Under the pieces are notes generated by a model. That model searched no databases. It was not told the DNA's origin and saw nothing but the letters and a program-made list of their open reading frames with translations. The translations under genes were made by a program, and so were the position numbers. A stretch of 64,000 bases of DNA, taken from assembly GCA_024694365.1 (NCBI GenBank), contig JAILJX010000004.1:1-64000 (forward strand), given 5' to 3'. Source of the stretch: Kiritimatiellia bacterium (GTDB lineage: Bacteria; Verrucomicrobiota; Kiritimatiellia; RFP12; UBA1067). This document shows, piece by piece, positions 1-9,210 of the stretch. Position 1 is the stretch's first letter, and every line of letters starts with the position of its first letter.

Positions 1-963
1 CGGGGCGGGGCGATCCGCGAGCGGCTGGCGGCGGCGGCGACCGCGGCGCGCCGCGGCGCATACGTCGAGAGAGTGTTCATCCGCGCGCTCGTGGAGATAT
101 CGAGCGTATGCAAGAACGACTGCCTCTACTGCGGACTTCGCGCGTCGAACGCCTCGGCGCAGAGGTACAGGCTGAAGCCGGACGAAATAGCGGCCTGCGC
201 AGAGGAGGGATACGCCCTGGGCTTCCGGACGGTCGTTCTGCAGGGCGGGGAGGACCCCTTCTTCACCGACGCCATCGTCGAAGGCGTCATACGCGACATA
301 AAGAGCGCACATCCGGACATGGCCGTCACGCTGTCGCTTGGCGAGCGCGGACGGGACAGCTTCGCGAGGCTGAGGGAGGCCGGCGCCGACAGATACCTCC
401 TGAGGCACGAAACGGCGGACGCCGTCCACTACTCCCGCCTGCATCCGCCGTCGATGAGCTTCGCGAACAGGATGAAGTGCCTTGCGGACCTGAAGGAGCT
501 CGGCTACCAGACCGGCTGCGGCTTCATGGTTGGCAGCCCCCGGCAGACGCCCGGGACGATCGCCGAAGACATCGCCTTCATAGCGTCGTTCAGGCCGGAG
601 ATGTGCGGGATAGGGCCTTTCATCCCGCACCATGCGACGCCCTTCGCGAAAGAAAAGGCGGGGACGGTCGAGGCGACGTGCCTTCTTCTGAGCATCGTGA
701 GGCTTCTGCATCCGCACGTGCTGCTGCCCTCGACCACGGCGCTGGGGACGATAGATCCCGAGGGGCGGGAAAAAGGCATACGTGCGGGCGCGAACGTGGT
801 CATGCCCAACATCTCGCCTGCCGCGGCGAGAGGAAAGTACGAGATCTACGACAACAAGCTCTGCAGCGGGGCGGAGTCTGCGCAGATGCTAGACGAGCTC
901 AGGCGCCGCGTCGCGGCGGCCGGCTGCAGCATCGCCGTGGACCGCGGCGACTTCCGTCCGTGA
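1..963 (+). CDS. hydE: [FeFe]-hydrogenase maturation radical SAM protein HydE, 5' end outside window
   Basis: HydE is a radical SAM enzyme that helps build the diiron subcluster of the [FeFe]-hydrogenase H-cluster, together with HydF and HydG. The frame is open from base 1. A GTG at 73 could start it, but the codons before it still read like the HydE lead-in to the cluster loop, so the gene very probably begins left of the window. Seen: CKNDCLYCGLR (CxxxCxxC cluster motif, coding near 109-140), LQGGEDP, RHETAD, GFMVGSP and GIGPFIPH, all in HydE order. No hydF, hydG or hydrogenase is visible. The last 75 bases overlap the 3' end of the convergent RND gene. BioB, ThiH or MqnC are less likely because of the CGLR and GPFIPH signatures. 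Confidence 0.88.
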   Translation, partial: RGGAIRERLAAAATAARRGAYVERVFIRALVEISSVCKNDCLYCGLRASNASAQRYRLKPDEIAACAEEGYALGFRTVVLQGGEDPFFTDAIVEGVIRDIKSAHPDMAVTLSLGERGRDSFARLREAGADRYLLRHETADAVHYSRLHPPSMSFANRMKCLADLKELGYQTGCGFMVGSPRQTPGTIAEDIAFIASFRPEMCGIGPFIPHHATPFAKEKAGTVEATCLLLSIVRLLHPHVLLPSTTALGTIDPEGREKGIRAGANVVMPNISPAAARGKYEIYDNKLCSGAESAQMLDELRRRVAAAGCSIAVDRGDFRP

Positions 964-3900
964 GCGGCGGGCGAAAAGCGCCGAATAGAGCGCAGGGATG
1001 AAGTAGAGCGACACGAGCGACGAGAGGAGTATGCCGCCCACCGACCCTATGCCGATCGACTGGCGGAGCTCCGAGCCGAGCCCCCCGCCGAGAGCCATAG
1101 GCAGCATGCCGAAAAGAGCGGCGGCGCAGCTCATGAGGATGGGGCGGAACTTCGACCTGGTCGCCGCCGCGATGGCGTCGCGCCCCGCGAGCCCGCCGGC
1201 CTCCGCCTCGCCTATGCCGTCGACGAGCAGGATGGCCGCGTTCACCACGACGCCGACGAGCATGATGCCGGCGAGGAGTCCGAAGACGGAGAACTGCGTG
1301 CCGGCGATCCTCACGGCGGCGAACATCCCGAGGTAGGAGAAGGGAACGGTGAAGAGGATGACGAACGGCTTGGTCCAGCTCTCCATGATGGCGCAGAGGA
1401 GGAGGTAGGTGAGGATCACCGCGACCGCGCCGACAAGGCCGAACTCCTTGAACACCTCGTCCATGTACTCGGCTATGCCGCCGATCTTCACCTCGCATCC
1501 CGGAGGCAGCCTCCGGCCGATGGTGCCGAGGCCCTCCTCGAGAGTCGCGCCGAGGCCGTACCCGTGCGCGTTGTTGGCGTAGACGATGGCGTCGCGGCGC
1601 TTCTCGCGGCGGACGATCTGCACGGGCTGAAGGCTCTCCTTCGCGTCGGCCACGGCGCCGAGGGTGAACGGACGCCCCTCCGCGCCGGGGAAATTCAGCG
1701 CGTCTATCTGCCCGGCGCCGTCCTTCTGCGCAAAGCGCACCCTCACGTCGTAGCAGCGTCCGCCGGCGGTGAACGTCGCAGGAGTGAGGCCGGCGAACGA
1801 GGCGCGCAGAGTCATGCCAAGGGCGTCCGGCTTGACGCCGAGGTCGTTCAGCACGGCGCGGCGGGGATGTATCCTGATCTCCGGCCGGCCCGCCCTGACG
1901 CTCGTCGCGACGTCCTTGGCGCAGGGCGAGCGCTCGAGATCCTTGCCCGAGGCGAGGGCTACCGCGCCCACCTCGTCGAGAGAGTCGCCGAGAATGTGGA
2001 ATTCTGCGCTCTGCGAAGCGCCGCCGACGATAAGCGGCACGAGGGCGGTCGCGATGAGGTCCGGCTCCTTGGCGAGCTCCGCGCGGACCATCGCCAGCAG
2101 TTCGTGTATCGATTCGCTGCGCTCGCCCATCTTCCTCAGGCAGAGCGTAAGCTCGGCGAGGTGGGGTCCGCGCGAGACCTGCCCCAGCACGCCCTGGGTC
2201 TTGCCGACGGCGAGGGCGCTTCTTTCGACGACCTTTTCGCCGTGCGAATCGCGCAGCGCGAGGATGCGCTCGAGTATGGCGTTGGCCCTCGCGGCGGAAT
2301 GCTCGAGGGTGGAGTCTGCCGCGAACTCGAGCTTGACGCTCATTTCGCTCTGGTCCATGACCGGGACGAAGTCCACCTGCATCCCGGGGAGGACAAGCCT
2401 GAAGGCGAGAAGCGTCGCGGCCGCGGAGATCGCGACGGCGAGCCACGGGTGGGCGATCGCCGGGCGGACGCTCGCGGCGTAGAACCTCTCCATCGCGGAG
2501 TAGGCGATGCGCCACGGGGAGAGCAGAAACCTCAGCGCGACGTTCACCCGCTCGCCCCTGCCGGCGGTAAGGCAGGCGAGGATCGGCGTAAGCGTGAAGG
2601 AGACGAGAAGCGACGAGAACGTCGCCGCCGTCACCACTATCGAGAACGGCACGAAGAACTGTCCCGGGAGGGACTTCATGAACGCGACGGGGAGGAAGAC
2701 GACGATGTTGGTGAGGGCGCTCGCGGAGACGGCGAGCGCCACGCGGCCGGTGGCCGAGGCGACGAGGGACTTCAGCGCCGCCCTGTCGGCCGCGTCCGCG
2801 CCCTCCATCGCGCCCGCCACGCTCTCGAGCACAACGATGGAATTCGCCACGAGAACGCCCACGGAAATCCCGACCGCGCTCATGGTGACGAGGTTCATCG
2901 TGTAGCCGAAGAGCGAAAACGCGATGAGCGAGACCATGATCGTGACCGGGATGGAGACGAACGCCACGAGCGTCGTGCGCCAGTCGGCGAGGAACGCGAG
3001 AAGGATGACGCCCGTGAGGAGGATCCCCTGCCATATGGAGTCCATGCCGCCCGCGACGGTCGCATGGACGTAGTCGCCGTTGTCGCGGACCCAGTCCAGC
3101 CTCATGCCTTCGGGCAGCTCTCCGCACACGTCGCCGTAGACGCGCCGGACGCGGTCCACCACGGCGGCGGCGTTGGCCTCGCCCTTCTTCGTTATCTTCA
3201 TCAGCACGGCGGGGCGGCCGGCGTAGAACGCCAGGGACTCCCTCCTCTTCGTGCCCCAGCCGAACGATGCGACGTCGCCGAGGCGCACGCGCGCGCCGCC
3301 GGGAGGGCCGAGCTCTATCCCGCCGAGGTCCGCGGGCGAGGGAGCCTGCGCGTCGAACGTCACCGAAAGCTCGCGCTCGCCGTCGGTAAGCTGGCCCGAG
3401 GGTATCTTTATGTTGCCTTTGCCGACGGCCTGGACGACATGGGCGAGCGTGAGGCCGGAGGCCGCGAGCTTATCGCGGTCCACCTCCACGAGCACGTCGC
3501 GCTTCTCGCCGCCGATCAGCTCGACGGACGCTACGCCGGAAAGCGAGGAGAACCTGTCCTTGAGCCTGTCGTCGGCCCAGTCGTAGAGATCGTCGACCGG
3601 CGCGGACCCCGTAAGCGCGATGGTGACGACGCTGAGGGCGTTCACGTCGTATTTGAGGACCTCCGGCTCCTCGGCGCCGGGGGGGAGGTCGTTTTTGACG
3701 AGCGCAACCTTCTCGCGCACGTCGGTCGCCGCCTCGTCCACGTCGCGGCCAAGGTCGAACTCCAGCATGACCTGGCAGAAGTTGTTGGCGCACGTGGAGG
3801 TGACGTGCTTGAGTCCGTCGACCTGGGCGACGGCGTCCTCTATGCGCCGCGCGACGGCGCTCTCTATCTCGTCAGGGCTGGCGCCTGGGTATACGACCGA

Positions 3901-4041
3901 CACCGAGACGTAGGGGACGTCGACCTGGGGGACGAGATCCACGCCCGTCCCCCTGTAGGCTATCGCGCCGAAGATCATCAGCGCGATGAGGCCGACGCTC
4001 ATCGCTATCGGCCGCTTCAGGCTCGCATCGGAAAGAAACAT
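889..4041 (-). CDS. RND family efflux permease (inner membrane), altered proton-relay residues
   Basis: Inner-membrane pump of a tripartite efflux system, 1050 aa, normal length for the AcrB/SwrC superfamily. It starts with the usual first helix (LKRPIAMSV) followed by GVDLVPQVDVPYVSV, then the first periplasmic domain, helices 2-6 (from about residue 335), a second periplasmic loop and helices 7-12. TM4 reads GVLVANSIVVLES where the family has LVDDAIVVxEN (or LVDN in the SwrC-like clade), so both aspartate positions are Ala399-Asn400. TM10 reads GVVVNAAILLVD, with Asn at the Lys position, as in related clades. Start ATG lies 4 bases after the membrane fusion gene stop. Its 3' end overlaps hydE by 75 bases. 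Substrate cannot be told. Confidence 0.92.
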   Translation of the reverse strand: MFLSDASLKRPIAMSVGLIALMIFGAIAYRGTGVDLVPQVDVPYVSVSVVYPGASPDEIESAVARRIEDAVAQVDGLKHVTSTCANNFCQVMLEFDLGRDVDEAATDVREKVALVKNDLPPGAEEPEVLKYDVNALSVVTIALTGSAPVDDLYDWADDRLKDRFSSLSGVASVELIGGEKRDVLVEVDRDKLAASGLTLAHVVQAVGKGNIKIPSGQLTDGERELSVTFDAQAPSPADLGGIELGPPGGARVRLGDVASFGWGTKRRESLAFYAGRPAVLMKITKKGEANAAAVVDRVRRVYGDVCGELPEGMRLDWVRDNGDYVHATVAGGMDSIWQGILLTGVILLAFLADWRTTLVAFVSIPVTIMVSLIAFSLFGYTMNLVTMSAVGISVGVLVANSIVVLESVAGAMEGADAADRAALKSLVASATGRVALAVSASALTNIVVFLPVAFMKSLPGQFFVPFSIVVTAATFSSLLVSFTLTPILACLTAGRGERVNVALRFLLSPWRIAYSAMERFYAASVRPAIAHPWLAVAISAAATLLAFRLVLPGMQVDFVPVMDQSEMSVKLEFAADSTLEHSAARANAILERILALRDSHGEKVVERSALAVGKTQGVLGQVSRGPHLAELTLCLRKMGERSESIHELLAMVRAELAKEPDLIATALVPLIVGGASQSAEFHILGDSLDEVGAVALASGKDLERSPCAKDVATSVRAGRPEIRIHPRRAVLNDLGVKPDALGMTLRASFAGLTPATFTAGGRCYDVRVRFAQKDGAGQIDALNFPGAEGRPFTLGAVADAKESLQPVQIVRREKRRDAIVYANNAHGYGLGATLEEGLGTIGRRLPPGCEVKIGGIAEYMDEVFKEFGLVGAVAVILTYLLLCAIMESWTKPFVILFTVPFSYLGMFAAVRIAGTQFSVFGLLAGIMLVGVVVNAAILLVDGIGEAEAGGLAGRDAIAAATRSKFRPILMSCAAALFGMLPMALGGGLGSELRQSIGIGSVGGILLSSLVSLYFIPALYSALFARRSRTEVAAVHGDAAAGRRDAAPELV

Positions 4042-4045
4042 GGCG

Positions 4046-5152
4046 CTACTCCCCCGCTATCCTCACGCTGTCGCCCTCGTTCACGAGGAGCATCCCTTCT
4101 GCGATCACCTTCGCGCCCTCGGGCACGCCGCGGACCTCTCTCCAGCCATCCCGGGAAAGGCCGGCCTCCACCGCGACGGCCTTGACCGCGCCGTCTTCCA
4201 CAACGAAGACCGTCTCCCTCCCGCCGCGCAGGTTGACCGCGCGCACGGGCAGCGCGGGGCCGGTGCGGTCGCCGAGGACGACCTCGGCGTCGAGAAGCAT
4301 TCCGGGAGCGAGCGAGCCGTCGATGTCTATCACGGCGCGGACTTCGAAAGTCCGCGTGGCGGGGTTCACCGACGGCGACTTGTACGAGACGGCGAGGCTG
4401 CGTCCGCACGTCTCCACGGCCGTCTTGCCGACGGCGACGCGCGCGTAGTCTTCGGCGTTCAGGTCGAAGCATATCTCATGGACGGCCGGGTTGTCGAGCG
4501 CAAAGACGGGGGTGCCGGGTCCGGCGTAGTCGCCGGCCTCCTTGAGCTTCCTCTTCACCGTCCCCGCGAACGGAGCCGTCGCCGTGGAGTCCGCCAGGTT
4601 TTTCTTCGCGATCTCGAGGGCGGTCTCAGCCTTCGTTATGCGCGCGGCGGCCGCTTCGCAGGCGGCCTCGGAGCGCGCGAGCGCGACGGACGCCTTCTCG
4701 GCGGCGTCGCGCGTCACGGCGTTCTCCTCCGAGAGCCGCTTCATGCGATCCCCGTCGAGCCTCGCCTTCTCCATCGTCGCCTTCGCCTCCTTCTCGCTCG
4801 CCTTGGCAAGCCTCAAATCGTCCTCCGCGGCCCGGACGGCGTTCTCGAGATTGACGCGATCCACCTGGAAGAGGCGGGCGCCCTTTTCGACCGTGTCGCC
4901 TTCGTCCGCGAAAAGCGCGTCGATCGTCCCCGGAACCCTCGCCGAGACGAGCGCGCTCTCCTTCGCCCTGATCGAAGCCTGCACGCTTCTCGTTTCGCGG
5001 AAGCGCCTGGCGGGATCGACCCGGACGACCTTGACGAGCGGACGCCTCTCCTCGCTTTTCTCCGGACCTTCCGCGCCATCCCGGGCGCATCCGGCGAGAA
5101 CCGCCGCGGCGATCGCCAGCGCCTCAATCCTCATCATCGCGATCTTCCTCAT
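4046..5152 (-). CDS. RND efflux periplasmic adaptor (membrane fusion lipoprotein)
   Basis: HlyD/AcrA-type adaptor joining the RND pump to the outer membrane channel, 368 aa. The N-terminus carries a lipoprotein signal ending VLAGC (Cys at residue 22), so it is probably anchored in the inner membrane by lipid. Then come the biotinyl-lipoyl half motif (ARVPGTIDALFADEGDTVEKG), a long Ala/Lys/Glu-rich alpha hairpin (about residues 100-185), the second lipoyl half (ATAPFAGTVKRKLKEAG), and beta-barrel and membrane-proximal domains. It overlaps the upstream TolC gene by 29 bases and sits 4 bases before the pump gene, consistent with one transcript. Confidence 0.93.
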   Translation of the reverse strand: MRKIAMMRIEALAIAAAVLAGCARDGAEGPEKSEERRPLVKVVRVDPARRFRETRSVQASIRAKESALVSARVPGTIDALFADEGDTVEKGARLFQVDRVNLENAVRAAEDDLRLAKASEKEAKATMEKARLDGDRMKRLSEENAVTRDAAEKASVALARSEAACEAAAARITKAETALEIAKKNLADSTATAPFAGTVKRKLKEAGDYAGPGTPVFALDNPAVHEICFDLNAEDYARVAVGKTAVETCGRSLAVSYKSPSVNPATRTFEVRAVIDIDGSLAPGMLLDAEVVLGDRTGPALPVRAVNLRGGRETVFVVEDGAVKAVAVEAGLSRDGWREVRGVPEGAKVIAEGMLLVNEGDSVRIAGE

Positions 5153-6605
5153 TTTCCTTCTCCTCCGTTTCGAACAACCCGAGCCCGACGGCCTGCCTCA
5201 GCGCTATCTCCGCGAGCGCCGCCGCGTATTCGGCGGAAACGGCCCTCACTTCGGCCTCGTCCCTGACGGCGAGCTTGTCGAGGACCCGGTCCATGGTCTC
5301 CTGTCCGTCGTCGTGCCGCCTCTCGGCGTCGGCATGGTCCAGGGCCGCGGCCTCGCGCATCTTCCTCGCCGCCTTCACGCGCGCAGCCGTCTCCTTCCAG
5401 TTGCGCCACGCGTCCGCGACGGACGTGACGACAGCCAGCATCCTGTCCTCCTGCAGCCTGAACTCCGCCTCGCTCCTCGCCCTCGCCGCGCGGTAGGCCT
5501 GAACCGACCTGAAACCCTCGAACGCGGCCCACGTGCCGGCGAGTCCGCCCGTCCAGCCTTTGACCGAGAGGGATTCAGCCGAAAAGTCGCTGGCGCCGCC
5601 ACCGAGGACGATGTCGGGGAGAAAGCCGGCGAGCGCCTCGACGACCTGCGCCTTCCTCAGGTTCACCGTCTCGTCGCCCGCATACAGGTCCTTGCGCTGC
5701 AGCAGGCCCTGCCACACGAATTCGGCGACATCGGTCCTCTCGAGCTCTTCGCGCGAGACGCTGCGGGGCGCGCCGTTGGTGTCTACGAAAACCCACGGCT
5801 CGTCGAGGACGCCGAGGATCGAGTCCCCGTCTATGGCGTATTCGGCGAGCGGCCAGAAGGTGAGGATGGACGACAGGTCGCTCCGCGCCTTGCGGCTTTC
5901 GTCGAGCGCCTCGGCGTAGCCGAGCTCGTCCCCGGCGAGCCTGGCCTCGGCGCGGGCGCGCTCCGCGGGGATGGCGTACCCCTCGGCGGCGAGGCGTCCG
6001 ATCCTGTTGGTGAGCGCCTCGCCCGTGGCGATGTTGAGCCGGCGCGTTTCGGCCATCCTGGCGGAGACGGCGGCCTTGTAGAAGCACGCGGCGACCTGCA
6101 CGTCGAGAAGCTGGCGCGCGCGGTCGCGGACGAGATCGGAAATCCTCGTGCCGTACTGCGCCTCGGCGAACATGGTCCACGCCACGGGCGCGAAGACGGG
6201 CTGCGTCACGAGAAGCGCCGTCCCGTCATAGCGTCCGTCGCCGCCGCGCACGCGCAGGTACGGGGAAAGCGTCGCGTCGCCGTGGGCCCTGAAGCGTCCG
6301 TACGCAAGCTCCGCGTTGGGGAGAAACGCCGAGAACGCGCTCGCGCGCGTCACCCTCGAGAGCTCCCTCTCCAGCTCCTGGCGGGTAAGCTTGAGGGTCC
6401 GCCTGCGCGCCAGCGCGACCGCATCCTTCAGCGAGAGCGGCCCGGGATTGGCCGCGAAATGGTCCGCCGTCTCGGCGGCGAGGCGGGACCGGAAATCCTC
6501 CGATATCCGGGCGCGGTCCTGCACGGTCGTCCCGCATCCGGCGGCGAGAACTGCGGCCGCCATTAAACACGTGTTTAACGCCTTTGCGAAAAAACGTTCA
6601 CCCAT
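5124..6605 (-). CDS. TolC-family outer membrane efflux channel lipoprotein
   Basis: Outer membrane factor of the same efflux system, 493 aa, in the range of OprM/NodT-type lipoprotein channels. Lipobox LAAGC near residue 20-24. The body shows two repeats of long amphipathic Ala/Arg/Glu-rich helices typical of the OEP fold, the second starting near residue 290. The ATG at 6605 overlaps the tetR stop by 8 bases. A later ATG (residue 15) would leave a signal peptide without a charged n-region and is less likely. The 16-bp perfect palindrome at 6563-6578 lies inside codons 10-15. Confidence 0.9.
   Translation of the reverse strand: MGERFFAKALNTCLMAAAVLAAGCGTTVQDRARISEDFRSRLAAETADHFAANPGPLSLKDAVALARRRTLKLTRQELERELSRVTRASAFSAFLPNAELAYGRFRAHGDATLSPYLRVRGGDGRYDGTALLVTQPVFAPVAWTMFAEAQYGTRISDLVRDRARQLLDVQVAACFYKAAVSARMAETRRLNIATGEALTNRIGRLAAEGYAIPAERARAEARLAGDELGYAEALDESRKARSDLSSILTFWPLAEYAIDGDSILGVLDEPWVFVDTNGAPRSVSREELERTDVAEFVWQGLLQRKDLYAGDETVNLRKAQVVEALAGFLPDIVLGGGASDFSAESLSVKGWTGGLAGTWAAFEGFRSVQAYRAARARSEAEFRLQEDRMLAVVTSVADAWRNWKETAARVKAARKMREAAALDHADAERRHDDGQETMDRVLDKLAVRDEAEVRAVSAEYAAALAEIALRQAVGLGLFETEEKENEEDRDDED
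6563..6578. promoter_or_regulatory. Perfect 16-bp palindrome, second candidate TetR operator, inside tolC
   Basis: TTAAACACGTGTTTAA is a perfect palindrome. Its six-base arms TTAAAC/GTTTAA and four-base centre match the palindrome in front of tetR at 7217-7232. It lies within the first codons of the TolC gene, 654 bp centre to centre from the first site. Inferred role: a second binding site acting as roadblock or looping partner. Confidence 0.6.
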
Positions 6606-7212
6606 GGTATTTCAGCTCCCTGAATATGGAATCGAGCACGAAATCGCCGAATCTCCTCCCCCAGCGAAGGCGCGAAACGCCGCCGGGGCGGAAAACGTCC
6701 TGCCATTTGGAGTCGACTATGGCCACGGCGGAGAGCTGCGACCATATCGACGTCATCCAGAGAAGCGCCTCCTCCTCCGTGGCGGCCGCCATCGCAAGAA
6801 GGCGCTTCAGGCAGTTGAAGACGGGCATCGCGTAGCGCTCCTTGAGATACCCGTACATCGCCGACGGGCGCGTCACCTCCTGGCGGAACGCCCACACCGG
6901 ATCCTTCCCGCCCAAAGAGCGCTCGTGCATGGCCTTGCCGAAGCCGCGCACCCACTCCGTCACGGCGCGCCTCCATCCGGGCTCGTCCTTCACTCCAAAA
7001 TCAAGGGTTGAGAGGCGCGGACCTCCCGCCTTGGCGAAGATTCTGCGGATGCATTCCCCGTAGAGCTTCTCCTTCGTCTTGAAGTGGTAGTTCACCAGGG
7101 CGACGTTGACGCCGGCCTCGCGGCATATCTCCCGCACGGTCGTGCCGTCAAGCCCCTTCTCCGCGAAAAGCGCCGTCGCGGCCGAGACGATTCTGTCCTT
7201 GGTGTCTTCCAT
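6598..7212 (-). CDS. TetR/AcrR family transcriptional regulator of the efflux operon
   Basis: 204 aa repressor-type regulator. The N-terminal helix-turn-helix matches the TetR signature (AATALFAEKGLDGTTVREI, then NVALVNYHFKTKEKLY, residues about 10-55). The C-terminal ligand domain (GKDPVWAFRQEVTRPS) resembles the CecR/YbiH group, which often controls drug pumps. It is the first gene of tetR-tolC-MFP-RND and overlaps tolC by 8 bases, so it probably represses its own operon. The start ATG at 7212 is 14 bases from the -10 side of a palindromic operator. Inducer unknown. Confidence 0.9.
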   Translation of the reverse strand: MEDTKDRIVSAATALFAEKGLDGTTVREICREAGVNVALVNYHFKTKEKLYGECIRRIFAKAGGPRLSTLDFGVKDEPGWRRAVTEWVRGFGKAMHERSLGGKDPVWAFRQEVTRPSAMYGYLKERYAMPVFNCLKRLLAMAAATEEEALLWMTSIWSQLSAVAIVDSKWQDVFRPGGVSRLRWGRRFGDFVLDSIFRELKYHG

Positions 7213-7216
7213 GTCT

Positions 7217-7232
7217 TTAAACGTTTGTTTAA
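7217..7232. promoter_or_regulatory. Palindromic operator in front of tetR
   Basis: TTAAAC-GTTT-GTTTAA: six-base inverted arms around a four-base centre. It starts 5 bases upstream of the tetR ATG and abuts the -10 element, so a bound repressor would cover the transcription start. The same arms recur at 6563-6578. Confidence 0.7.
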
Positions 7233-7240
7233 TTCTACCA
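7232..7240 (-). promoter_or_regulatory. Extended -10 promoter of the tetR efflux operon
   Basis: Reads TGG-TAGAAT on the minus strand, 19 bases before the tetR ATG, so transcription should start about 12 bases before it, within the operator. No clear -35 is seen; a GC-rich hairpin occupies that place. Confidence 0.55.
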
Positions 7241-7243
7241 TAT

Positions 7244-7272
7244 CCTCCCCCTCCCGGTCAAGGGGGGAGGGG
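7244..7272 (-). terminator. GC-rich hairpin after the GH115-like gene
   Basis: CCCCTCCC at 7248-7255 can pair with GGGAGGGG at 7265-7272 (an alternative register is 7244-7251 with 7263-7270). It lies just past the GH115-like stop. No T-tract follows, so an intrinsic terminator is uncertain. Confidence 0.3.
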
Positions 7273-7275
7273 CGG

Positions 7276-9210
7276 TCAAAGGCGCGCTCCGGCGCGGTCG
7301 AGCACAACTCCGGGATCCTTGGCGAAGACGGAAAAACCCTTCGCCCCGGCGGGGACGGGGATTTCGGCCTCGATGAAATTGTCCTGCACGGCGACCTGCC
7401 TTCCCGCGTCGCGCTCGCCGAGATTGGAGTCGCTTTTCGGGACCGCGACGCATTCGGCCGGGCCACCGTCGAACGAGACGCGAACGCCGAGTCCGAGCCC
7501 GGGCCAAAGGGCGAAATCGGGCAGAAACCTCAAAACGAGAGTCTTCGCCCCGCCGGGAAGGCGGTAGTCCAGCCTCGCCCCTTCGCCGGCGCCGGGCTTC
7601 ACCGGAAGGAGAGCAAGCGCGCGGCCGGAGGTGCCGAGGCCGGGGACGCGAGTCCAGGCCCCTCCGCCGGCGGCGGCGCTAGAGCAAGGCTCGAGCCATT
7701 CGGGCTCCGGGACGTCGCGGCGGTATGCGGTGGCGGCGTACTCCCTGCGCGATGCGTATTCCGCGGACCCCTCGGGCGGCTCGTTCCACGGCCACTGCAT
7801 CTGCGACGACCAGCGGTTGTGCCGCGAGCCGATCCGCTTCGACTTTTTCTCCTCCAGCGTATCTATCCAGAAGCCGGACCACTTTCCGCCGTCGAGGGAG
7901 TCCCAGCGCGCGTAAAGCGGAGCGAGCGCTTCGCGAGCGGACTCTTTCGTCCATCCCTCCAGATGCACGAGCCCGGAGATGGCGAGGAACCGGGCCTGGA
8001 AGCCGACGGTCCTGAAAAAGGCGTCGCGCCTCTCCGCGGGGAGCGCCGCCTCGAGCGCGGCGTCTTCGGCGAGAAGCGCCCTGTAGCGCGCGGCGAGGGA
8101 CGCCTTCACCCCGCCGGGCAGGTTTTCAGTCCACTGCACGCACATGTGCTCGGGCTTTCTGATGAAACCGAGATTGAAGTACTCCATAAGATGGGAGAGG
8201 GCGCGGTCCTTCAGCGCGTCTTCCAAGCCGAGCTCGCTGCCGCACCACGCCGCGAGCGCCGCGGGCTGGGCGTCGGGTCCCCACGCATCGGGCCGCGCCG
8301 AGAAGCGTCCGAAGCAGTCGAGCAGCAGCTCGGCCTGGAAGACGTCGCCGGCGTTCACCATCCAGACGTCCCTCGCGCCGTTGTTCCACGCTTTCGCGCA
8401 AAGCTCGTACCACATGAACGCAGGCGGCACGGTGCACGTCTGCAGGTAGCCGTGCGGGAGGCCCCAGTAGGAGAGATGCCAGTATATGCCGCCGCCGTAC
8501 CCCTCGCACGCCGGCCCCCCGAGGCGCCTTATGTAGCCGTAATTGTCGTTCACCCACATTATAGTCGCGCCGGCGGGCACCTTCAGTCCGGCGTTGAATA
8601 TGGGCAGAACCTCCTTGTACGGACAGAACAGCATCGGCGCGCCGTCGGGCAGCATCTCCTTCTGCGCGGCGAAGACCTCCTCGAGGATGCGTTTCTTTTC
8701 TTCCGTGGATCTGCCGTCGGGCATTCTCGCGTCGTGTATGCCGCGCATGCCGATCGTCCAGAGGATCTCGCGCCCCTCGCCGCGGCGCACCCCTTCCCGC
8801 CAGTAGTCCTTGAGGAATGCTCTGTTCGACGTCCAGCTCCATTTGCCCTTGTCGGCCTCGGGCAGGTAGCAGTTGTTCCTGAGCATCGGCTCGCAGTGGC
8901 TCGTCCCGACGGCGATTCCGTACATGCCGGCGAGATCAAGATTCTCCGGACGCGACGAGAATTCGTAGCCGCCCTCGTGCATCGCGGGCCACAGCAGGTT
9001 GAGGCCTTTCGATTTCATCAGAGAGAAGACTTCCGCATACGCCCCGACGCCTATCTGCTCTTCGGCGCCGAAATGCTTCACGGCCCAAGGCCTGAGGCCC
9101 CAGTCCTCGTCGTTGATGAACAGCCCCCTGTACTTCACCCCTTCGCCGGACGAGGCGAGGGAGCAGAGGCAGACGGCAAAGGCGGCGGAGAATGCGCATG
9201 CGGCTTTCAT
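7276..9210 (-). CDS. Secreted GH115-like alpha-glucuronidase
   Basis: Probable glycoside hydrolase related to family 115, which removes (4-O-methyl)glucuronic acid from xylan side chains. 644 aa from the ATG at 9210; an upstream frame extension of 12 residues runs through the promoter and is rejected. A signal peptide (MKAACAFSAAFAVCLCSLASS) is followed at once by YRGLFINDEDWGLRPWA, the start of the GH115 TIM-barrel domain, then MLFCPYKEVLPIFNAG, WVNDNYGYIRRLGG, IYWHLSYWGLPHGYLQT and DVWMVNAGDVF. The usual N-terminal domain before the barrel is absent, so it is shorter than typical 800-1000 aa members. The last 150 residues look like a beta-sandwich. Single-gene unit with a leaderless-type promoter. 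Confidence 0.82.
   Translation of the reverse strand: MKAACAFSAAFAVCLCSLASSGEGVKYRGLFINDEDWGLRPWAVKHFGAEEQIGVGAYAEVFSLMKSKGLNLLWPAMHEGGYEFSSRPENLDLAGMYGIAVGTSHCEPMLRNNCYLPEADKGKWSWTSNRAFLKDYWREGVRRGEGREILWTIGMRGIHDARMPDGRSTEEKKRILEEVFAAQKEMLPDGAPMLFCPYKEVLPIFNAGLKVPAGATIMWVNDNYGYIRRLGGPACEGYGGGIYWHLSYWGLPHGYLQTCTVPPAFMWYELCAKAWNNGARDVWMVNAGDVFQAELLLDCFGRFSARPDAWGPDAQPAALAAWCGSELGLEDALKDRALSHLMEYFNLGFIRKPEHMCVQWTENLPGGVKASLAARYRALLAEDAALEAALPAERRDAFFRTVGFQARFLAISGLVHLEGWTKESAREALAPLYARWDSLDGGKWSGFWIDTLEEKKSKRIGSRHNRWSSQMQWPWNEPPEGSAEYASRREYAATAYRRDVPEPEWLEPCSSAAAGGGAWTRVPGLGTSGRALALLPVKPGAGEGARLDYRLPGGAKTLVLRFLPDFALWPGLGLGVRVSFDGGPAECVAVPKSDSNLGERDAGRQVAVQDNFIEAEIPVPAGAKGFSVFAKDPGVVLDRAGARL

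Follow-up and report, generated by a model that had tools for sequence, protein, structure and literature searches.

Paired candidate TetR operators, at the promoter and in the first pump gene, in efflux operons of Kiritimatiellae

Introduction

Pumps controlled by TetR-type repressors are usually described as having one operator region that governs the regulator and the pump together (PMC12421961); the sources cited here by PMC number are represented by the parts available, and the comparisons drawn from them apply to those parts. The operators of Tn10 TetR are two tet sites that lie 11 bp apart at promoters (PMC9210681, PMC9736018), and the TetR-family gene for CecR (YbiH) of Escherichia coli shares an operon with the ybhGFSR pump (PMC7190983). 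The PsrA-type operator of Pseudomonas is a palindrome, C/GAAAC-N2-4-GTTTG/C, at the regulator's own promoter, and a relative from Stenotrophomonas has two inverted repeats at its own promoter (PMC13104628).

Roadblocks set up by TetR-family proteins at exporter operons are already known (PMC9210681, PMC5787919). AtsR of Corynebacterium glutamicum, a TetR-type regulator that controls an operon with an exporter of the RND superfamily, has a 12-bp palindrome at +93 to +105 and likely acts as a roadblock. RolR, also TetR-type, is described as a roadblock repressor whose operator spans +66 to +94 and +40 to +68 (PMC9210681). RifQ of Amycolatopsis mediterranei, also of the TetR family, binds downstream of the transcription start of the rifamycin exporter gene rifP and is said to form a roadblock (PMC5787919). 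C.Kpn2I binds within coding DNA, where it stalls the polymerase and limits its own gene (PMC6237814), and an intragenic roadblock by CodY is cited in PMC4760761. Intragenic binding of a TetR-type protein can also be silent: the TetR-like PA3973 has 308 targets, the majority of them within coding sequence, where its binding changes expression little or not at all (PMC9736018).

Here we analyse a stretch of 64,000 nucleotides, hereafter the window, from a Kiritimatiellia bacterium (GenBank assembly GCA_024694365.1, contig JAILJX010000004.1), in which a tetR gene precedes an RND efflux operon and a pair of matching palindromes is found, one at the core promoter and one inside the first pump gene. 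The locus resembles those of AtsR and RolR in its TetR-type repressor and in the roadblock reading, but these have one site each, that of AtsR lying upstream of the first gene (PMC9210681). At the RifQ locus the exporter gene comes first and has a long leader, and the available part of the report mentions no pair of promoter and coding sites (PMC5787919). The window sites have the core AAAC-N4-GTTT in common with the PsrA-type operator, but the base before AAAC is T rather than C or G, and the second full site in the first structural gene is a feature of the window, unlike the PsrA-type arrangement as described (PMC13104628). CecR goes with an ABC pump, and its available description mentions no internal operator, whereas the window has an RND pump and an internal site (PMC7190983). 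The tandem of Tn10 resembles the tandem sites that we find in sister operons, whereas the second site of the window arrangement is about 650-720 bp off, in coding DNA (PMC9210681, PMC9736018). C.Kpn2I and CodY are unrelated to TetR, and a block at the window site would leave the regulator gene untouched and limit the gene after it (PMC6237814, PMC4760761). The original prediction called internal operators of this kind unusual for TetR pumps; in the sources available this holds for a site within coding sequence, but TetR-family roadblocks downstream of the transcription start had been published for AtsR and RifQ. A literature search of incomplete coverage returned, in the parts of the sources available, no TetR operator in the first pump gene that has a promoter copy and is conserved across genera. 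What appears to be new is that a site at the promoter has a partner inside the first pump gene, past the regulator gene, and that more than one genus shares this pairing.

Results

All genes of the operon lie on the minus strand. The gene tetR (6598..7212) encodes a presumed repressor of 204 aa with a TetR_N helix-turn-helix domain (Pfam PF00440, E 2.9e-16; 59.4 bits against a cut-off of 24), which is presumed to be dimeric. Its closest match among solved chains, from a four-sequence TetR profile, was CecR (9i1x, E 1.6e-16), and it scored below the NCBIfam equivalog cut-offs for RefZ (57.8 against 180), Vibrio PsrA (50.1 against 300) and CecR (41 against 365). Behind it stand consecutive genes for a complete RND tripartite efflux system, namely a tolC-type outer-membrane lipoprotein of the OEP family (5124..6605; PF02321, E 7.2e-22; lipoprotein signal recognised by eye), an RND periplasmic adaptor (4046..5152; TIGR01730, 165.5 bits against a cut-off of 94.9) and an RND permease (889..4041; PF00873, E 7.4e-198). 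A plus-strand radical-SAM-like open reading frame (73-963), which looks HydE-like by eye, meets the 3' end of the permease gene in a tail-to-tail overlap of about 75 bp (889-963).

The genes tetR and tolC overlap by 8 bp, and a likely ribosome-binding site for tolC, AGGGAG (6616..6621, minus strand), lies within the 3' end of tetR. We take ATG 6605 as the tolC start because of this upstream AGGGAG and because it yields a full lipoprotein signal, as judged by eye. A later start at ATG 6564-6566, which would place the internal palindrome upstream of the gene, was rejected, since no ribosome-binding site is visible for it and the signal peptide would shrink to 10 uncharged residues.

The promoter scan of 6400-7400 found a single sigma-70-like promoter, TTGACC-18-TAGAAT, with its -35 hexamer at 7256..7261 and its -10 hexamer at 7232..7237, both on the minus strand. 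The candidate operator 1, TTAAAC-N4-GTTTAA at 7217..7232 (TTAAACGTTTGTTTAA on the plus strand), shares one base with this promoter, the last of the -10 box. The prediction had placed this palindrome over the tetR transcription start, and the contact with the -10 box agrees with that, the start itself being predicted rather than mapped. The candidate operator 2 lies 654 bp away at 6563..6578 (TTAAACACGTGTTTAA on the plus strand). Both 16-mers are free of mismatches, as the prediction had stated, and the second does fall within tolC codons: it occupies +28 to +43 of the gene, 19 nt past the tetR stop, and spans the codons L-N-T-C-L(-M) of the signal peptide MGERFFAKALNTCLMAAAVLAAGC. Since the two genes overlap and leave no spacer, operator 2 falls within signal-peptide codons. 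TTA accounts for two of the 213 leucine codons of the operon, and both are within the internal site.

When up to 2 mismatches were allowed, these two places were the only ones in the window; 100 shuffles averaged 0.22 places, and no shuffle contained two. The genome that contains the window (2,461,998 bases in 129 contigs, 85% complete) holds the exact motif at these two places, with no further place at 1 mismatch and no exact match of the reversed control; at up to 2 mismatches there are 14 motif places against 27 of the control, the remaining 12 all having 2 mismatches. The scattered random copies that would have spoken against the prediction were thus absent from the 2.46-Mb assembly, both as exact matches and at 1 mismatch.

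Searching the genome_contigs collection with an RND alignment gave 10 loci, six of them in Kiritimatiellae MAGs from the digestive tract of goat, sheep and roe deer and the other four in uncultured Verrucomicrobia or uncultured bacteria. The set of operons with paired sites was assembled from a TetR search of 96 relatives and from motif scans. It comprises five tetR-pump operons in which the promoter and the first pump gene each have a copy, that of the window (G000) and those of G040, G009, G102 and G047, which span two genera of one Kiritimatiellae family, G102 belonging to the other genus. The TetR of G040 is 66% identical to that of the window; the promoter site of this operon reads TTAAACATGTGTTTAA, and the internal site, which as in the window follows the tetR stop by 19 nt, reads TTAAACAAATGTTTAA. 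The more distant TetR proteins of G009 (33-35% identity) and G047 (39-41%), together with that of G102 (85% identical to G009 TetR), go with GTAAAC-N4-GTTTAC at both the promoter and the internal place. Within each of the five operons the arms of the two sites are identical and the N4 differs, the outer base being T in G000 and G040 and G in G009, G102 and G047. The internal site follows the tetR stop by 19, 19, 46, 46 and 47 nt, the two sites are 654, 668, 711, 710 and 717 bp apart, and the internal palindrome starts at codon position 1 in two of the loci and at position 2 in three. At the promoter, the candidate operator starts on or beside the -10 hexamer in the window and in the four relatives, whose hexamers read TACAAT (G040), TATACT (G009), TATTCT (G102) and TACAAT (G047).

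In G047 the search for tolC gave no match, at the threshold applied, in the interval from tetR to the adaptor gene or in the rest of the genome. Its internal site lies in the adaptor signal peptide at an offset of +41, which equals the tolC offset in G009 and G102, as if tolC had been lost through a deletion that retained its leader. At about 4900-5000 of this locus (L051) the adaptor carries a tolC-like leader that has no lipobox cysteine.

The motif KTAAAC-N4-GTTTAM occurs at 13 places in 61 genomes of the genus, eight of which form four pairs, all in tetR-pump operons, against 15 places for the reversed control. Across 161 genomes of the order, for which places and pairs were read by eye from the listed rows, there are 64 places with five pairs closer than 1 kb, all in tetR-pump operons, against 56 places and no pair below 1 kb for the reversed control. 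With A or C as the outer base, the palindrome occurs at 34 places in these genomes and forms one pair (G103:C26, 32 bp apart). As 64 compares with 56 and 13 with 15, the motif itself is not enriched, but its pairing behind tetR is. Given the encoded peptide and the codon usage, the probability of the exact arms is 8e-6 in G000, 3e-5 in G040, 3e-4 in G009, 2e-3 in G102 and 2e-4 in G047, the usage being taken from the same genes including the site itself (from 695 codons in G102) and the values for G000 and G040, and for G009 and G102, not being independent of one another.

Separately from the paired sites, we observed that CTAAACGAAAGTTTAG or its complement is repeated on several contigs of the same-genus genomes G012, G096, G036, G055, G018 and G097, the copies often lying close to where contigs end and resembling the terminus of a repeat or mobile element.

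The base outside the core was compared with the recognition helix of TetR. After removal of rows with an identical 150-nt end or with fewer than 100 aa, 79 TetR loci were left, of which 45 have a recognisable promoter site and enter the comparison; the 34 without a site by the pattern include the imperfect tandem sites of L005 and L052. At the position of Tyr42 of the window TetR, Tyr goes with an outer T..A in 10/10 loci; of the 35 loci with Arg there, 31 have G..C and four carry the G on a single half. This link between helix and base is in part a reflection of shared ancestry, as many of the Arg loci are one paralog group with GTAATC-type sites. In each operon with paired sites the internal and the promoter site fit the TetR encoded between them, since they have the same outer base. 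The prediction of twin TetR operators gains from these comparisons, in that four relatives carry the same pair with sites that match within each operon and the outer base follows the helix, and we regard both palindromes as candidate operators on these grounds. A large TetR paralog group of the same family (L008, L012, L014, L015, L024, L026, L028-L030, L135 and others) has a single upstream GTAATC-N4-GATTAC; its member in the window's own genome (G000:C27, L135) has a profile match that contains one TAA.

A second copy no more than 400 bp behind tetR is present in five of the 45 loci, which are the five described above, and in none of the other 40, two of which (L025 and L121) end just behind tetR. 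Among the 14 pump operons of the family, which are the loci tested for pump genes and a subset of the TetR matches, nine have no internal site, so that it is not required. Four of these have tandem promoter sites 13 bp apart (G004, G131, G139 and G145). A weaker second half-site, again at 13 bp, makes G115 (7 and 7 of 8 core bases) and G135 (8 and 6 of 8) possible tandems as well, and the pump operons of G124, G125 and G112 have one site each. An internal site and a tandem pair do not occur together in any of the 14. On contig C90 of G004, at about 20.9-32.9 kb (L038, L050), tetR-tolC and adaptor-RND are about 6 kb apart.

A TetR-profile search of 387 genomes of the phylum (E <= 1e-45) added three TetR loci from outside the family, in other families of the class: L131 (G179), L132 (G212) and L133 (G503). 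These have two half-sites resembling AAAC-N4-GTTT at the promoter, 13, 13 and 17 bp apart, and no internal site. In the TetR tree (27 rows) the operons with paired sites fall into two well-supported groups, G000 with G040, and G009, G102 and G047 together with members that have no such pair. L059 (G124:C30) groups with G047; it lacks an internal site, and the piece retrieved around it gave no pump match. When the tandem rows alone serve as the comparison, with 15 rows ungrouped, the starred branches require at least two changes.

Discussion

The internal site is probably an auxiliary TetR operator that acts as a roadblock, sparing tetR and blocking the pump, as judged from sequence and placement. 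The TetR encoded at 6598-7212 would bind two copies of one 16-bp operator. At operator 1, which abuts the -10 box, it would stop initiation at the single promoter seen for tetR-tolC-adaptor-RND, in classical autorepression, and at operator 2 the repressor would most likely halt a polymerase that had slipped past operator 1, so that tetR would be copied and the pump genes would not. The supply of repressor would be topped up in this way while the pump stayed tightly off, and a ligand would release both operators at once. Binding by the window TetR, blocking of the polymerase and uncoupling of repressor from pump are what we infer from the arrangement, in which the internal site lies downstream of the promoter in transcribed DNA, co-transcription being assumed from the gene overlap. 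The distance of 19 nt by which the site follows the tetR stop in the window and in G040 is about the length of DNA that a polymerase covers ahead of its active site.

The main rival to a roadblock is looping, which we consider unlikely: TetR dimers on the two sites, 654-717 bp apart, would touch, and the DNA loop would strengthen repression of the promoter. The lac operon has an auxiliary operator, O2, in lacZ, some hundred bp from the promoter site, and loops through LacI, which is a tetramer; it is like the window in having a second operator copy in the first structural gene, but the window TetR is presumed to be dimeric. A loop would suit the identical paired sites and their similar spacing in five operons. 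At 10.5 bp per turn, however, these spacings amount to 62.3, 63.6, 67.7, 67.6 and 68.3 turns and so have no shared helical phase, which should itself be of little weight at such distances, and a loop site need not adjoin the tetR stop, yet the internal site does in all five. The location directly behind this stop favours a roadblock over a loop, as far as an argument from placement goes. The same placement bears on the very unlikely reading of the internal site as a passive decoy, an extra sink for TetR that would make the response more graded and would have no direct effect on transcription. If the promoter site is bound, an internal site with identical arms should be bound as well, and for PA3973 many sites within coding sequence leave expression unchanged or nearly so (PMC9736018), but a sink could sit anywhere, which leaves the constant position past the tetR stop, in the transcribed path, unaccounted for. 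Independent control of the pump would also be explained by a second promoter in the 3' end of tetR, overlapped by the internal site and driving the pump genes alone. We hold this to be improbable. A -10-like hexamer, CATACT, does stand shortly before the internal site of G102, and its 4/6 matches equal those at that operon's own promoter, but no sigma-70-like promoter was found at the internal site in the window, and in the five operons the internal sites have -10 matches of 2, 3, 2, 4 and 3 of 6 and -35 matches of 3, 1, 2, 2 and 3, against 5, 5, 5, 4 and 5 and 5, 5, 3, 3 and 5 at the promoter sites.

Two further explanations were considered. The palindrome could on paper form an mRNA hairpin near the tolC start with a 6-bp stem and a 4-nt loop, but the minimum-energy fold of 101 nt around this start does not contain it and is no more stable than shuffles (z 0.48, 138 of 200 shuffles being as good), and matching arms are also present in the promoter copy, of which only a part should be transcribed; we find such a role scarcely credible. 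Chance or peptide constraint, without any function, is in our view highly improbable. It would agree with the absence of the internal site from nine of the 14 pump operons and with a motif that by itself is not enriched over its control, but it is opposed by the confinement of the five close pairs to tetR-pump operons when the reversed control has none (161 genomes), by the differing frames and peptides, and by the link of the outer base to the recognition helix. A chance origin was rejected on the own-genome count and on the pair counts against the controls.

The reading frames and the distances from the tetR stop differ between the two groups of operons with paired sites, which suggests that the internal site was gained separately in each, although one old gain followed by losses also fits the tree. 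Taken as a whole, and with a roadblock as the preferred reading of the internal site, we tentatively propose a recurrent arrangement of Kiritimatiellae efflux operons, in which a second TetR operator may have moved from the promoter to the signal-peptide codons of the first pump gene, directly past the tetR stop, so that one promoter could have two outputs, the repressor made and the pump blocked. At least two TetR lineages with different operator specificities may have reached this arrangement independently, and in G047 the operator may have gone along with the leader when tolC was lost.

If an operator is conserved behind tetR within the pump gene, repressor and pump would be under separate control from a single promoter, and signal-peptide codons would serve as regulatory space. 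The rule that relates Tyr or Arg in the recognition helix to the outer base of the operator is directly testable and would help to predict TetR sites in uncultured bacteria.
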